Shown here one piece after another: positions 1,445-23,631 of a stretch of DNA of 41,414 nucleotides. A model generated the notes under the pieces. The model did not search any database. It worked only from the letters and a program-made list of their open reading frames with translations, and was not told where the DNA came from. Where the stretch lies: the NCBI GenBank assembly GCA_013002045.1, contig JABDKV010000120.1:1-41414 (forward strand). The letters are read 5' to 3'. Origin of the DNA: Gammaproteobacteria bacterium. Its GTDB lineage: Bacteria; Pseudomonadota; Gammaproteobacteria; Steroidobacterales; JABDKV01. Numbering within the stretch: position 1 is the stretch's first letter; each line of letters begins with the position of its first letter. The translations under genes were made by a program, and so were the position numbers.

Positions 1445-3496
1445 ATGAATGTGAGCCGTATTATTGCCTTGTCTTTATTTGCCTTGCTCGCAGGTTGTAC
1501 CGCGACCACACCGTCCGGTGACGAAACACCGGTAGCCAGGGCGCCGCTGGAATCGGGCCTCGATATCGAGTCGCTCGACACGCGGGTGCGGCCGCAGGAT
1601 GACTTTTTTGAATGGGTCAACGGCAGCTGGCTGGAGGCCACAGAGATACCGGCTGACAAGTCCAATTACGGTGCATTCACCGAACTGTTCGATGCTGCGG
1701 AAGCCAACCTGAGACAAATCATCGAAGAAGCCGCGGCCACCGCTGCGCCGCCCGGCAGCGTCGAGCAAAAAGTGGGCGACATGTACCGCTCGTTTATGGA
1801 CGTGGAGCGGATCGAGAGACTCGGCCTGCAGCCATTGACACCCGAGTTCGAACGCATCGCGGCGATCGGTGACAAGGATGACCTGGCGCACTGGTTCGGT
1901 AATGCACTGCGGCTGGGCGTTTCCGGACCGCTATTCTTCTGGATAAACCAGGATGCACGCGCCACTACTGAATACATCAGCTACCTCAACCAGGGTGGTC
2001 TCGGTCTGCCGGACCGGGATTACTATTTCGATGAAAGCGAACGTTTTCAGCAGATCCGCAGCGCTTATCTCGACTACATAGCCAATATCCTCGAACTGGC
2101 CGGCAGCGACGCGGCGCGCGTCGAAGCCAAGCGCATATTCGCACTGGAACAACGTATTGCCGAAGCACACTGGACGCGAGTCGAGAATCGCGATCGCAAC
2201 GCAACCTATAACAAGTACAGTATCGAAAAACTGCAGGCCGATATGCCGCAATTCGACTGGCTGCGATTCCTCGATGGCGCCGGTTTGTCCGATGTAAACG
2301 CGCTGATCGTTCGCCAACCCAGTTACTTCGACGCGCTGGACGACATAGTTGCCGATGTACCGCTGTCAACGTGGAAAAGCTACCTGCGTTTTCGCCTGCT
2401 CAATGCTTTTGCCCCGGACCTGCCGCAGGCTTTCGTAGATGCAAACTTCGATTTTTACGGTCGCACCTTGCGTGGCACCGAGAAAAATCGCGAACGCTGG
2501 AAGCGTGCCGTAGCCAGGGTGGAAGCTGCGCTGGGTGAGGCAGTCGGCCAGATTTATGTCGAGCGTCACTTTCAGCCAGCGGCAAAAGAGCGCATGGACG
2601 ACATGGTCGAGAACCTGCGGATGGCTTTTGCCGAGGCAATTAACGAACTGGAGTGGATGGGTCCCGAGACCCAGGCTGAAGCACAGCAAAAACTGGCCAA
2701 GTTCACTCCGAAAATCGGTTATCCGAACCAGTGGCGTGATTACACGTCGCTGGAAATACGTCCCGACAGCCTGATTGCCAACCAGATTGCCAGTGCCCGG
2801 TTCGAACACCAACGCAATGTCGACAAGCTGGGCAAGCCGATCGATCGCGACGAGTGGTTCATGACACCGCAAACGGTGAACGCCTATTACAACCCGTCGA
2901 TGAATGAGATTGTTTTTCCGGCGGCAATATTGCAACCGCCTTTCTTTAATGTGGCCGCCGATGATGCAGTTAATTACGGTGCAATCGGCGCCGTAATCGG
3001 GCACGAGTTCAGTCACGGCTTCGATGACCAGGGACGCAAGTCCGATGGCGATGGTACGTTGCGGGACTGGTGGACCGAGCGGGATGCGGAGGAGTTCCGG
3101 CGTCGCTCGTCCAACCTGGTCGCACAGTACAACGAGTTCAGCCCCATTGAGGGGATGAATGTGAATGGCGAGCTGACACTGGGCGAGAATATCGGTGACC
3201 TGGCCGGTCTGACCATGGCCTACCGTGCTTACAAGTTGTCGCTTGGTGGCAGGGAAGCCCCGGTCATCGGCGGCTATACCGGTGATCAGCGTTTTTTCAT
3301 GGGCTGGTCGCAGGTTTGGCGACGCAAATACCGCGAGGACGAGTTGCGGCGCCGCCTGGTGACCGATCCGCATTCTCCAAGTCGATATCGCGTCAACGGC
3401 ATCGTGCGCAACATGGATACCTTCTACGATGCATTTAATGTGCAGCCCGGCGATGAGCTGTACCTGCCGCCGGAACAACGGGTGCGGATCTGGTGA
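1445..3496 (+). CDS. M13 family zinc metallopeptidase (neprilysin/PepO-like), lipoprotein
   Basis: Lipobox LFALLAGC; DDFFEWVNGSWL; NAYYNPSMNEIVFPAAILQPPFF; HEFSHGFDDQG (HExxH); GELTLGENIGDLAG. Confidence 0.95.
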   Translation: MNVSRIIALSLFALLAGCTATTPSGDETPVARAPLESGLDIESLDTRVRPQDDFFEWVNGSWLEATEIPADKSNYGAFTELFDAAEANLRQIIEEAAATAAPPGSVEQKVGDMYRSFMDVERIERLGLQPLTPEFERIAAIGDKDDLAHWFGNALRLGVSGPLFFWINQDARATTEYISYLNQGGLGLPDRDYYFDESERFQQIRSAYLDYIANILELAGSDAARVEAKRIFALEQRIAEAHWTRVENRDRNATYNKYSIEKLQADMPQFDWLRFLDGAGLSDVNALIVRQPSYFDALDDIVADVPLSTWKSYLRFRLLNAFAPDLPQAFVDANFDFYGRTLRGTEKNRERWKRAVARVEAALGEAVGQIYVERHFQPAAKERMDDMVENLRMAFAEAINELEWMGPETQAEAQQKLAKFTPKIGYPNQWRDYTSLEIRPDSLIANQIASARFEHQRNVDKLGKPIDRDEWFMTPQTVNAYYNPSMNEIVFPAAILQPPFFNVAADDAVNYGAIGAVIGHEFSHGFDDQGRKSDGDGTLRDWWTERDAEEFRRRSSNLVAQYNEFSPIEGMNVNGELTLGENIGDLAGLTMAYRAYKLSLGGREAPVIGGYTGDQRFFMGWSQVWRRKYREDELRRRLVTDPHSPSRYRVNGIVRNMDTFYDAFNVQPGDELYLPPEQRVRIW

Positions 3497-5442
3497 AGTC
3501 TTTACTGAGTTTGCTGCTGGCCGGTCTGCTGCTGTCTGGCTGCGCCGATAATGAAAATACCGACCTGTCGACGGTGGCCTCCGATTCTGCGGTGCCGCCG
3601 CCCGCGCTGGTCGTGCCGCCACCGTTGCCGGTAGAGCCCACGGTCGCACCCGCCGACGACTATCACTCCTATGCGAATCCCGGTGAGATTGCCGTCCGTC
3701 ACATCAGCCTCGATCTGCAAACCGATTTCGGCGAACAGATTCTCAAGGGGACAGCGACGCTAACCGTCGAGCGTGTCAGTCGTGATGCGGAAATGCTGAT
3801 GCTCGATACGCGGGACCTCGAGATCCAGGATGTGCGTGTCGAATCACCAGCCGGGAAATGGGTCCAGACTTATTACAAACTCGGCAACAGTGATGGCGCT
3901 CTCGGGGCGCCACTGGCAATCGAGCTGCCCCCCGGCGATGCCAGCACTTTCAGTGTCCGTATTCGCTATCGCACGGCACCCGGTGCCAGTGGCCTGCAGT
4001 GGCTGACGCCGGCGCAGACCGCCGGCAAGAAACACCCGTTCCTGTTTTCGCAATCGCAGGCGATACACGCACGCAGCTGGATTCCGCTGCAGGATTCACC
4101 GGCAGTACGGGTCACCTACGATGCGACTATCCGTACACCGCAGGACCTGCTCGCCGTGATGAGTGCGAGCAACGATGCAGACACCGAACGCGATGGCGAA
4201 TACACGTTCCGGATGCCACAACCGATACCGTCATACCTGATCGCCATTGCAGTCGGCGACCTGGTGTTTGAGCCTATCGGTGAACGTACAGGCGTTTATG
4301 CCGAACCGGCGCTGGTCAAGGCAGCAGCAGACGAGTTCGCCGATACCGAGACCATGCTGGAAATCACCGAAGACCTGTTCGGGCCTTATCGCTGGGGGCG
4401 CTACGACCTGTTGATACTGCCACCGAGTTTCCCTTTCGGTGGCATGGAAAACCCGCGCCTGTCCTTCATCACACCGACCGTAATCGCCGGCGATCGCAGC
4501 CTGGTGTCGCTGATCGCACATGAGCTGGCGCATTCGTGGTCCGGCAACCTGATCACCAATGCCACCTGGCGTGATCTGTGGCTCAACGAGGGTTTCACCA
4601 GCTATCTCGAAGCACGCATCATGGAGGCCGTTTACGGCGCTGAGCGTGCAGAAATGGAAAATACGCTGGGCTACCAGGGCCTGGCCAGGGAACTGGCGGA
4701 ACTGCCACCGGAAGCGCAAATCCTGGCGATCGACCTGCGTGGCCAGGATCCCGACAATGTATTCACCTCAGTGCCCTACACCAAGGGACAATTATTCCTG
4801 ACCTGGCTGGAAGGCTATTTCGGTCGCGAAGAATTCGATGTGTTCCTGCGCAACTATTTCGACCGCTTCGCTTTCGAGAGTATTACCACCGACCAGTTTC
4901 TGGAGTACCTGAGCGCGCAATTGCCCGCCAACAGGCCAGCCAAGCCGCAAATCATGGAGTGGGTATTCGAGCCAGGTTTGCCGGCAGATGCAGTGCTGCC
5001 GCAGTCGGATGCGTTCACCCGCATCGATGCAACCCGCAATGACTGGCTCGAAGGCGAGATTGCTGCTACAGACATCGACACCGAAGCGTGGACCGTGCAT
5101 GAATGGCTGGCATTCCTCAACAACATGCCGGATCAGTTGAGCAATGACCAACTGGTGGCGCTCGACCAGGCGTTCGACCTCACTGAATCCGCTAATAACG
5201 AAATCGCGCACAGCTGGCTCAAAATTGCGATACGCAACGACTACGAGCCGGCATTTGCCCGTCTGGAGAACTACCTGCTCAGTATCGGTCGGTTAAAACT
5301 CATTCGGCCGTTGTACCAGGAACTGGTGAAGACTGAGCGCGGCAAGCAGTTTGCGCAGCGCGTGTATGCGCAGGCGCGACCGGGTTATCACCCCCTGGCC
5401 CAGCGTGTGAGCGATGCCATAGTCATGGGCGACGGCGGGTAG
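3493..5442 (+). CDS. M1 family metallopeptidase (leukotriene A4 hydrolase-like aminopeptidase), lipoprotein
   Basis: Lipobox LLLSGC; GGMENPRLSF; HELAHSWSGNLITNATWRDLWLNEGFTSYLE (HExxH-18-E). Start overlaps the preceding stop by 4 nt. Confidence 0.95.
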   Translation: MKSLLSLLLAGLLLSGCADNENTDLSTVASDSAVPPPALVVPPPLPVEPTVAPADDYHSYANPGEIAVRHISLDLQTDFGEQILKGTATLTVERVSRDAEMLMLDTRDLEIQDVRVESPAGKWVQTYYKLGNSDGALGAPLAIELPPGDASTFSVRIRYRTAPGASGLQWLTPAQTAGKKHPFLFSQSQAIHARSWIPLQDSPAVRVTYDATIRTPQDLLAVMSASNDADTERDGEYTFRMPQPIPSYLIAIAVGDLVFEPIGERTGVYAEPALVKAAADEFADTETMLEITEDLFGPYRWGRYDLLILPPSFPFGGMENPRLSFITPTVIAGDRSLVSLIAHELAHSWSGNLITNATWRDLWLNEGFTSYLEARIMEAVYGAERAEMENTLGYQGLARELAELPPEAQILAIDLRGQDPDNVFTSVPYTKGQLFLTWLEGYFGREEFDVFLRNYFDRFAFESITTDQFLEYLSAQLPANRPAKPQIMEWVFEPGLPADAVLPQSDAFTRIDATRNDWLEGEIAATDIDTEAWTVHEWLAFLNNMPDQLSNDQLVALDQAFDLTESANNEIAHSWLKIAIRNDYEPAFARLENYLLSIGRLKLIRPLYQELVKTERGKQFAQRVYAQARPGYHPLAQRVSDAIVMGDGG

Positions 5443-20569: not shown

Positions 20570-20600
20570 AGCTCGAATCCGTCAGTGGGTTGGCGCCGCT

Positions 20601-20606
20601 ATTGTA
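20601..20606 (-). promoter_or_regulatory. Putative -10 element (TACAAT) for gpmA
   Basis: attgta on plus = TACAAT on minus, about 31 nt upstream of the gpmA start codon. Confidence 0.4.
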
Positions 20607-20688
20607 CATGCGCCGCCCGGCTCGCTGGTTAAAACGGCGCCGGCAAGGTCATGCCACACTCAGCGGGCGAACAGGCCGGGCGCTCGGG

Positions 20689-20694
20689 TATACT
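20689..20694 (+). promoter_or_regulatory. Putative -10 element (TATACT) for the saccharopine-dehydrogenase-like gene
   Basis: GGGTATACTCGCGCGG, 30 nt upstream of ATG 20725. Confidence 0.4.
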
Positions 20695-20724
20695 CGCGCG
20701 GCTCAACAAGCCGAAGGAATCAAG

Positions 20725-21864
20725 ATGGCCTCGATTACCGTTCTCGGTGCTGGCCTGGTCGGTCGCGCGATCGTCGCCGACCTGTGCCAGGACTACAGCA
20801 CCCGCGTCGTCGATATAGACAAAGATCGTCTCGATGCAATTGCCAGGCACTACGCTGTCGATACGGTGAGTGAAGATCTCGCTGACCCGGCGATCGTCTC
20901 CGAACTGTCAGCCGAATCGGACCTGGTCGTTTGCGCCGTTCCTGGTTTTATGGGGTTCAGAACGTTGCGCGCGATCATCGAAGCAGACGTCAATGTGGTC
21001 GATATTTCGTTCTTTAATCGGGACCCGTTTGAGCTCGATGCGCTGGCAAACGAACACCAGGTCGTCGCGGTAGTTGATTGCGGTGTGGCACCAGGAATGA
21101 GCAACATTGTTCTGGGTTACCACGACAGCCAGATGCAGGTCAGTCGTTTCGACTGCATGGTTGGCGGTTTGCCGCTTAGACGGACCTGGCCTTACGAGTA
21201 CAAGGCGCCTTTTTCGCCAATCGACGTTATCGAGGAATACGTGCGACCGGCGCGACTGCGGATTAATGGCGAGACCGTGACCCGAGCGGCGTTAACAGAG
21301 GCAGAGTTAGTAGACCTCGAGCAGGTTGGCACCCTCGAGGCGTTCAACACGGACGGATTGCGAACGCTGCTCGATACGATGCAGGTACCCAATATGCGTG
21401 AGCGTACTCTGCGGTACCCGGGACATTGCGAGCTGATGCGCGTGCTGCGTGAAACCGGGTTTTTCGACACCGGGAAAATACGTGTCGGCGATGACGAGGT
21501 TCGGCCGCTGGACCTGACCACGGCCCTGTTGTTCCCGCTGTGGCAGGCAGAACCCGGCGAGGACGAATTCACAGTCATGGCCATCGAAGTCGAGGGCGTG
21601 CGGGACCAGCAGGCCGAGCTGCATCGCTACGAGCTTTATGATCGTAACGACGCCACCACGGGTCTCAGCTCGATGGCGCGCACCACAGGTTTTACCGCGA
21701 CCGCCGCGGCACGTCTCGTGCTTGATGGTGACTACGACCGGGTTGGCATCTCGCCACCGGAGTACGTTGGCGCGGCACCCGGTTGTTTTGATCGCATGCT
21801 TGCACTGCTAGCGGCCCGCGGCGTGCACTACCGGCACTCGGTCAGCCCGTTAACTGTCGACTAA
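20725..21864 (+). CDS. Saccharopine dehydrogenase-like oxidoreductase
   Basis: ATG 20725: MASITVLGAGLVGRAIVADLCQDYSTRVVDIDKDRL...VVDCGVAPGMSNIVLGYHD...GGLPLRRTWPYEYKAPFSPIDVIEEYVRPARL, saccharopine dehydrogenase family pattern. Confidence 0.9.
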   Translation: MASITVLGAGLVGRAIVADLCQDYSTRVVDIDKDRLDAIARHYAVDTVSEDLADPAIVSELSAESDLVVCAVPGFMGFRTLRAIIEADVNVVDISFFNRDPFELDALANEHQVVAVVDCGVAPGMSNIVLGYHDSQMQVSRFDCMVGGLPLRRTWPYEYKAPFSPIDVIEEYVRPARLRINGETVTRAALTEAELVDLEQVGTLEAFNTDGLRTLLDTMQVPNMRERTLRYPGHCELMRVLRETGFFDTGKIRVGDDEVRPLDLTTALLFPLWQAEPGEDEFTVMAIEVEGVRDQQAELHRYELYDRNDATTGLSSMARTTGFTATAAARLVLDGDYDRVGISPPEYVGAAPGCFDRMLALLAARGVHYRHSVSPLTVD

Positions 21865-21999
21865 TTTTACAATCTGCCGCTCGGGTGGTTGCGGACATCG
21901 GTGGCAATACCATGCTTCCCGTGCGGTCTGCGCGTCTGGCACAGATTATGCTCACAGGGTATCGCTGAGCCTGGAACTGTTCTGAGCTTATGTTAAATA

Positions 22000-22148
22000 G
22001 GGACAACCGACGGGTTCGCCTGCAGTCGCATGGATAGGGGACTGGTTGCGGGGAAAAGGCCCTGGGAGGGCGTCAGCAGGACCGCAAACTGCTGACTATA
22101 AAAAAAGAGACGAGAAGGGGCCGGCGATGTGAATCGCCGGCCTTTTTT
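22000..22148 (+). ncRNA. Candidate structured intergenic RNA (sRNA) with Rho-independent terminator and multiple GGA motifs
   Basis: Manually found hairpins: AACC-GACG-GGTT (about 22004-22016); CAGTC 22023-22027 / GACTG 22040-22044 with ATGGATAGGG in the loop; GCCCT 22059-22063 / AGGGC 22067-22071; GTCAGCAG 22072-22079 / CTGCTGAC 22089-22096; then terminator 22119-22148. 5' end uncertain (a promoter-like TACAAT also lies at 21868-21873). Confidence 0.5.
22119..22148 (+). terminator. Rho-independent terminator
   Basis: Perfect 10-bp stem GGCCGGCGAT (22119-22128) / ATCGCCGGCC (22133-22142), GTGA loop, followed by TTTTTT (22143-22148). Confidence 0.92.
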
Positions 22149-22233
22149 CTTTGGGTGCGGGCCTGCGCCTGTCGCCCGGCCCCGGATAGTTGATCGGGTA
22201 CACTGTGCGGCCCGCGTAGCAACAGGGCGGTCG

Positions 22234-23631
22234 ATGGCAGTCAGACTTTCTTTTCATGGTGGCGCCGGTACCGTTACCGGATCGAAATACCTGCTCGATA
22301 CTGGCACCAGTCGGGTGCTGATCGATGCCGGATTGTTCCAGGGCCTGAAGAAGCTGCGGCTGTTGAACTGGCGCCCCTCGCCGTTCCCGCCGGAGTCGGT
22401 CGATGCCGTGCTGTTGACGCATGCCCATATCGATCATGGTGGCTACCTGCCACGTCTGGTCCGGCTCGGTTTTGACAACCCGGTGTACACCACCCCGGCG
22501 TCGATGGACCTTGCCACGTTGCTGTTGCTCGACGCTGCCAAGATTCAGGAGGAAGATGCGGCCTTTGCCAATCGCAAGGGTTACAGCAAGCATCGACCGG
22601 CGCTGCCGTTGTATACCACCGAGGATGCGGTTGCCGCCTGCGAGTTGATGCAACCGGTCCCGTTTGGGGAGTGGCTACAGGTGCGTGAAGATGTGCGCGC
22701 GCGATTCCTTAATATGGGTCATATCCTCGGTTCGTCGATGATCGAAGTGCATGTGACCCAAGGAGGGAAGCGGGCCCGACTGGTTTTCAGCGGCGACGTT
22801 GGCCGCTATGACGTGCCACTGCATTCCAATCCCGACAATCTGCCCGATTGCGATTACCTGACTATCGAGTCCACCTATGGCGATCGTGTCCACAATCACG
22901 AAACAGTCGAGCAACAGATACGAGATGCGTTGATTCGTGCTGTTGAACGCGAGGGTACGATATTAATTCCGTCGTTCGCGGTGGGGCGTACGCAGCTGGT
23001 AACGCTGTCATTGCGTAACCTGATCAACGAAGGACGCCTGCCCGAGGTGCCCATACACATCGACAGCCCGATGGCGGTCGATGCCACGCGCCTGTATACC
23101 AAGCATATAAAGGATCTCAGTATCGATGCGACAGTGACCGAAGACGGCCGCTCACGGTTGTTTCCCAACAACGTCCATTTTCACCGTTCGGTTCGCGAAT
23201 CGAAGGCGCTCAACCGCATGCCGGGACCGCGAGTCGTTATATCCGCAAGCGGTATGCTGACCGCCGGACGGGTGTTGCATCATCTGGCACGCCTGTTGCC
23301 GGATCCGCAGAATCTGGTCACGCTGGTTGGCTACCAGGCAGCAGGCACCCGCGGTCGCGCCATGATCGAAGGTGCCGAATCGATCAAGATCCACGGTCAG
23401 GAGATACCGGTACGCGCCGAGTTCATCGCCCTGAGCGGCTTGTCGGCACACGCCGATCGCAACGAGTTGTTGCGCTGGGCACAGTCGGGAGAATCGACAC
23501 CCGGGACTATCTTCGTAACCCATGGCGAAGAAAAGTCACAGCAGGCCCTGGCGCAATTGCTATCCGGGGAGACCGGGGCACAGTGCATTACCCCGGAGCT
23601 GGACGAAGAAGTTCAGATCAGGCTGAGTTAG
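22234..23631 (+). CDS. MBL-fold metallo-hydrolase with beta-CASP domain (CPSF-like RNA-processing exonuclease family)
   Basis: LSFHGGAGTVTGSKYLLDTG; LLTHAHIDHGGYLPRLVRLGF; FSGDVGRYDVPLHSNPDNLPDCDYLTIESTYGDR; ASGMLTAGRVLHHL; SAHADRNELL. ATG 22234 preferred; the track start 22129 lies in the terminator loop. Confidence 0.94.
   Translation: MAVRLSFHGGAGTVTGSKYLLDTGTSRVLIDAGLFQGLKKLRLLNWRPSPFPPESVDAVLLTHAHIDHGGYLPRLVRLGFDNPVYTTPASMDLATLLLLDAAKIQEEDAAFANRKGYSKHRPALPLYTTEDAVAACELMQPVPFGEWLQVREDVRARFLNMGHILGSSMIEVHVTQGGKRARLVFSGDVGRYDVPLHSNPDNLPDCDYLTIESTYGDRVHNHETVEQQIRDALIRAVEREGTILIPSFAVGRTQLVTLSLRNLINEGRLPEVPIHIDSPMAVDATRLYTKHIKDLSIDATVTEDGRSRLFPNNVHFHRSVRESKALNRMPGPRVVISASGMLTAGRVLHHLARLLPDPQNLVTLVGYQAAGTRGRAMIEGAESIKIHGQEIPVRAEFIALSGLSAHADRNELLRWAQSGESTPGTIFVTHGEEKSQQALAQLLSGETGAQCITPELDEEVQIRLS

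Follow-up and report, generated by a model that had tools for sequence, protein, structure and literature searches.

A putative lineage-specific terminated transcript upstream of a beta-CASP gene in a gammaproteobacterial metagenome-assembled genome

A noncoding segment located between a saccharopine-dehydrogenase-like gene and a beta-CASP gene probably gives rise to a terminated transcript specific to its lineage, which would be an orphan sRNA or else the 3' end of the upstream mRNA. The segment lies in a window of 41,414 nucleotides (the whole stretch of DNA that was analyzed), which makes up all of contig C12 in a 3.14-Mb gammaproteobacterial metagenome-assembled genome with a completeness of 91%. 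In the favored reading, a noncoding, lineage-specific insert would end in a very efficient Rho-independent terminator, yielding a terminated transcript of ~150 to 190 nt. This RNA might start from its own promoter, as an orphan sRNA gene, or represent the 3' untranslated region (UTR) end of the saccharopine-dehydrogenase-like mRNA, two origins that are inseparable on present evidence. As an orphan terminated transcript, the segment carries little weight beyond annotation.

Anatomy and distribution of the segment

The upstream gene (20590..21864, + strand) is saccharopine-dehydrogenase-like, with NADP-binding and C-terminal domains (Pfam PF16653, 2e-41, and PF03435, 2e-11), and the downstream gene (22234..23631, + strand) encodes a beta-CASP metallo-hydrolase with an RMMBL domain (PF10996, 4e-33, and PF07521, 1e-15). 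They are separated by a 369-bp gap (21865-22233), in which the first-pass annotation saw no convincing open reading frame (ORF). We agree: apart from frame extensions, the gap holds chance ORFs of 21 to 54 aa only, and a peptide-coding reading of the segment was rejected. Between both genes lies the noncoding insert (21865..22190, + strand; 3' limit approximate), ~270 to 330 bp longer than in relatives. The beta-CASP protein itself also matches NCBIfam NF045584 (type VII CRISPR Cas14) at 9e-110. Since its score of 368 bits is far under the cut-off of 800 bits and no sign of a CRISPR context was seen among the scanned neighbor genes, the protein probably belongs to the general beta-CASP hydrolases.

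RNA folding outlines a putative structured RNA at 22000..22149 (+ strand), ~150 nt long or ~186 nt if it starts at 21963. Four small hairpins on this strand precede the terminator, in keeping with the clean upstream hairpins described earlier. Hairpin 1 (22000..22021) appears in the minimum free energy (MFE) structure. In hairpin 2 (22023..22044), a 5-bp CAGTC/GACTG stem closes the 12-nt loop previously said to hold ATGGATAGGG, and the sequence is indeed there; the ATGGA within this loop has an unpaired probability of 0.75 to 0.91. Hairpin 3 (22059..22071; GCCCT-GGG-AGGGC) is seen in the centroid structure, with a rival pairing in competition. Hairpin 4 (22072..22096) is the 8-bp stem GTCAGCAG/CTGCTGAC (arms at 22072-22079 and 22089-22096), with an AGGA that straddles the stem end so that the first G of its GGA is paired.

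The intrinsic terminator (22112..22149, + strand) has the core GGCCGGCGAT-GTGA-ATCGCCGGCC followed by T6 at 22119-22148, a GC-rich stem and then a T run. The perfect 10-bp hairpin with T6 that had been placed at the end of the gap is thus real, and neither strand of the window has another perfect 10-bp stem followed by a T tail. The fold of 21963-22149 is better than those of all 200 dinucleotide shuffles (z = -5.4), compared to z = -2.3 for the body without the terminator (22000-22110), for which 4 of 200 shuffles were equally good. The excess over chance comes mostly from the terminator, and the body is only moderately structured. A noncoding, terminated, structured transcript from the segment is plausible. 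If such an RNA accumulates, the stable 3' hairpin would protect it. The terminator would halt transcription ahead of the beta-CASP gene, insulating it from upstream transcription.

The same two genes are adjacent in G001, G002, and G004, of the same family, and in G035, of the same order, where the segment is absent and the intergenic gaps are 103, 55, 72, and 41 bp, respectively. Conservation in relatives was a stated check on the earlier annotation, and it came back negative: blastn against 396 genomes of the order (none of the same genus) returned no homologue, only chance matches of 18 to 45 nt, and a single-sequence covariance model run on 40 genomes found itself and one match at E = 0.34. 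No copy was found on plasmids or viral contigs. These comparisons suggest that the segment is lineage specific. A match in G015 was discarded as merely another terminator, after a different gene. In G003 (L062:1096-1153), a different gene precedes the beta-CASP gene; it encodes a short C-terminal segment, ILLLFGLGLIGVVVARRRS (a PEP-CTERM-like anchor), beside a run of N and is followed by a terminator-like AAAAGGCCGGTGGCGAAAGCCACCGGCCTTTTC.

Promoters, GGA motifs, and alternative readings

The start at TACAAT (21868) proposed by the first-pass annotation lacks a recognizable -35 element. A weak match to a sigma-70 promoter, CTGGAA-16-TTAAAT (alternatively TATGTT at 21989), lies at 21971..21998 (+ strand), from which transcription would start near 22000-22005; its approximate position weight matrix score is 3.9, whereas the best sites of 190-nt stretches of the window have a median of 4.5. 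A pattern scan also picked out a sigma-54-like site with one mismatch, TGGCACAGATTATGCT (21937..21952, + strand), with the GG and GC intact at the right spacing (GG-N10-GC) and a start that would be near 21963. Together with the RpoN encoded in the genome, this site would suit a sigma-54-dependent, base-pairing regulatory sRNA with a Qrr-like logic. We consider that reading quite improbable: pattern matches with up to two mismatches occur at chance frequency (29 versus 25.5 expected in the window), and the segment is not conserved. The site, one of three in the window that have a single mismatch and keep GG and GC, is only a lead and in itself no sign of function. Farther downstream, TACACT (22199..22204, + strand) may serve the beta-CASP gene as its -10 box; it is placed after the terminator and 29 nt before the ATG, and its spacing matches that of TAGAAT, found 28 to 32 nt before the beta-CASP ATG in three relatives. 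Transcription of the beta-CASP gene most likely begins at a promoter of its own, after the terminator. This bears on the other role that had been suggested for the segment, a 5' leader attenuator for that gene, or by extension a riboswitch, whose terminator would be conditionally relieved. The terminator does lie on the same strand, 85 nt before the ATG, but the relatives keep the orthologous gene without the segment (gaps of 41 to 103 bp) and the beta-CASP gene retains its -10-like box past the terminator, so the segment is not a conserved leader. Moreover, folding brought up no antiterminator that would compete, both the MFE and the centroid structure include the terminator, and no Rfam riboswitch or leader was matched at threshold. 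We regard the leader reading as very unlikely.

The first-pass annotation likened the RNA to CsrB/RsmY/RsmZ on account of its GGA motifs. All six motifs are where it placed them, and a seventh lies at 21973. At least seven GGA triplets are reached by 0.3% of the 149-nt tiles of the window; this enrichment arises because the strand is G-rich, and the six triplets would simply come from that composition. Against dinucleotide shuffles, the 149 nt hold 7 GGA versus 5.06 expected (P = 0.17) and 3 ANGGA plus AGGA motifs versus 2.4 expected (P = 0.43), whereas unpaired A(N)GGA is borderline (3 versus 1.1 expected; P = 0.06). High-affinity CsrA sites are ANGGAN hexaloops, and added loop nucleotides or pairing of the GGA lower affinity (PMC7652899). 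No ANGGAN hexaloop occurs in the fold of the segment; among the GGA motifs, ATGGA at 22030 alone has a clear hairpin-loop position, in a loop of 12 nt, and AGGA at 22078 is half paired. The GGA and A(N)GGA counts are at chance level and give no evidence for CsrA sequestration.

At the gathering threshold, Rfam had no match in the window, and neither tRNA nor tmRNA was found there, in line with the first-pass annotation, which did not recognize the RNA as 6S, tmRNA, RNase P, SRP RNA, or a common riboswitch. In a permissive scan, RF00166 (PrrB_RsmZ) scored 25.1 bits, with the cut-off at 44; this and the other permissive matches, an L20 leader among them, were all well under cut-off and were set aside. 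Every match was gone once the terminator was cut off, so the RsmZ match depends on the terminator. In our survey of relatives, a G008 stretch that spans the last part of a lysine-rich coding gene plus the terminator behind it scored 24.5 bits with the same model, and ~25 bits is therefore the noise level for RF00166. The Rfam check thus turned out against the CsrA reading. Finally, neither TGTAAG-N6-CTTACA nor TGTAGG-N6-CCTACA was found near 21600-22000 with up to three mismatches. With chance-level GGA, one clear loop A(N)GGA, no GacA box, and no conservation, the CsrB/RsmY/RsmZ assignment is not supported.

A narrower version can be weighed, in which the segment is an accessory, lineage-specific, GacA-independent sRNA like RsmW or RsmU that titrates the single CsrA via ATGGA, AGGGA, and AGGA. 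The genome encodes one CsrA and a UvrY/GacA-like regulator, the three sites are partly unpaired, and the weak RF00166 score points the same way, but the motif counts, the terminator-borne match, and the loop geometry given above all speak against it, as does a better-conserved Rsm-type candidate elsewhere in the genome (C316, by dtd). Because RsmW and RsmU are lineage specific or 3'-UTR derived and are not known to need GacA, we keep this version in consideration, though as an unlikely one; nothing found points to a CsrA sponge beyond what the G-rich sequence gives. Least probable of all is a recently acquired, sigma-54-started accessory sponge acting beside a conserved dtd-linked Rsm-type RNA, which, if true, would give nitrogen or stress signals a GacA-independent route into the Csr system. 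The practical lesson is one of method: a G-rich strand can pass for a CsrA sponge when GGA triplets are counted, and so can an RNA whose RsmZ score comes from its terminator.

A dtd-linked Rsm-type candidate in the same genome

The best UvrY/GacA-like regulator in the genome (L100) scored 246 bits versus a cut-off of 280, so it is a possible rather than an established GacA orthologue. In a family survey, the TGTAAG-N6-CTTACA box showed no excess over control, and the variant palindrome TGTAGG-N6-CCTACA recurred before one intergenic region adjoining dtd. This region is present in 5 of 5 family genomes, including this one (box at C316:3480-3497), with one mismatch in the G001 box. E. coli csrB has TGTGAGAGATCTCTTACA as well as another element, TGTAGGAGA (PMC4682653), which makes it plausible that such a palindrome is a GacA-like box. 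By palindrome and synteny, the candidate RNA lies at L134:1479-1720 in this genome (G000; contig C316, ~3262-3497, - strand) and at L133:1376-1575, L124:861-1080 (-), L125:1035-1262, and L126:872-1101 (-) in the others. Its 26-nt core, AGGACACTCGATCACACCTGCAAGGA, is exact in four family genomes, has one mismatch in this one, and was not found in 391 other genomes of the order. A hairpin with GGA in its loop precedes the core, and its stem changes on both sides between genomes, a covariation that rests on three to five sequences; a terminator is also present. In folds of single sequences, partial pairing affects two of the three GGA motifs, and Rfam does not recognize the RNA, which scores below thresholds. 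Judged from sequence, it is a better candidate for a Gac/Rsm-type sRNA than the segment. The search for a GacA-like palindrome, combined with synteny, thus led to an Rsm-type candidate of this genome that is far superior to the segment, is kept family-wide, and lies under Rfam thresholds.

In genus g3 of the same order, we observed a further conserved intergenic RNA of ~200 nt (L075:1501-1705 [-], L076:1501-1705 [-], and L078:1400-1612 [+]), whose hairpin loops contain CGGA/ATGGA and AGGA/GGGA and which ends in a strong terminator. Its RF00166 scores (34.4, 27.8, and 23.5 bits) are all under the cut-off of 44, and it is possible that it is a divergent RsmZ-like RNA.

Comparison with known systems

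Like CsrB/RsmY/RsmZ (RF00166 PrrB_RsmZ, clan CL00106), the segment is intergenic, combines hairpins and several GGA with a strong terminator, and sits in a host with CsrA and a GacA-like regulator. It differs in its subthreshold, terminator-dependent score, in lacking a GacA box, in its chance-level A(N)GGA, and in having one clear loop GGA, in a 12-nt loop instead of a hexaloop. RsmW of Pseudomonas aeruginosa and RsmU of Xanthomonas are closer in setting, as the segment is also lineage restricted, downstream of a gene, and equipped with a handful of GGA motifs. Both are reported to be 3'-UTR derived without a need for GacA activation, and they carry seven and four GGA motifs, respectively (PMC4950607, PMC7694677). 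Those two RNAs bind RsmA in vitro; the segment has a GGA frequency that is not above chance. The segment also resembles an orphan intergenic sRNA, or a long 3' UTR closed by an ordinary intrinsic terminator, in that it lies after a gene and its GC-rich stem has a T tail on a single strand; it differs in the extra 8-bp hairpin and the A-rich linker that precede the terminator.
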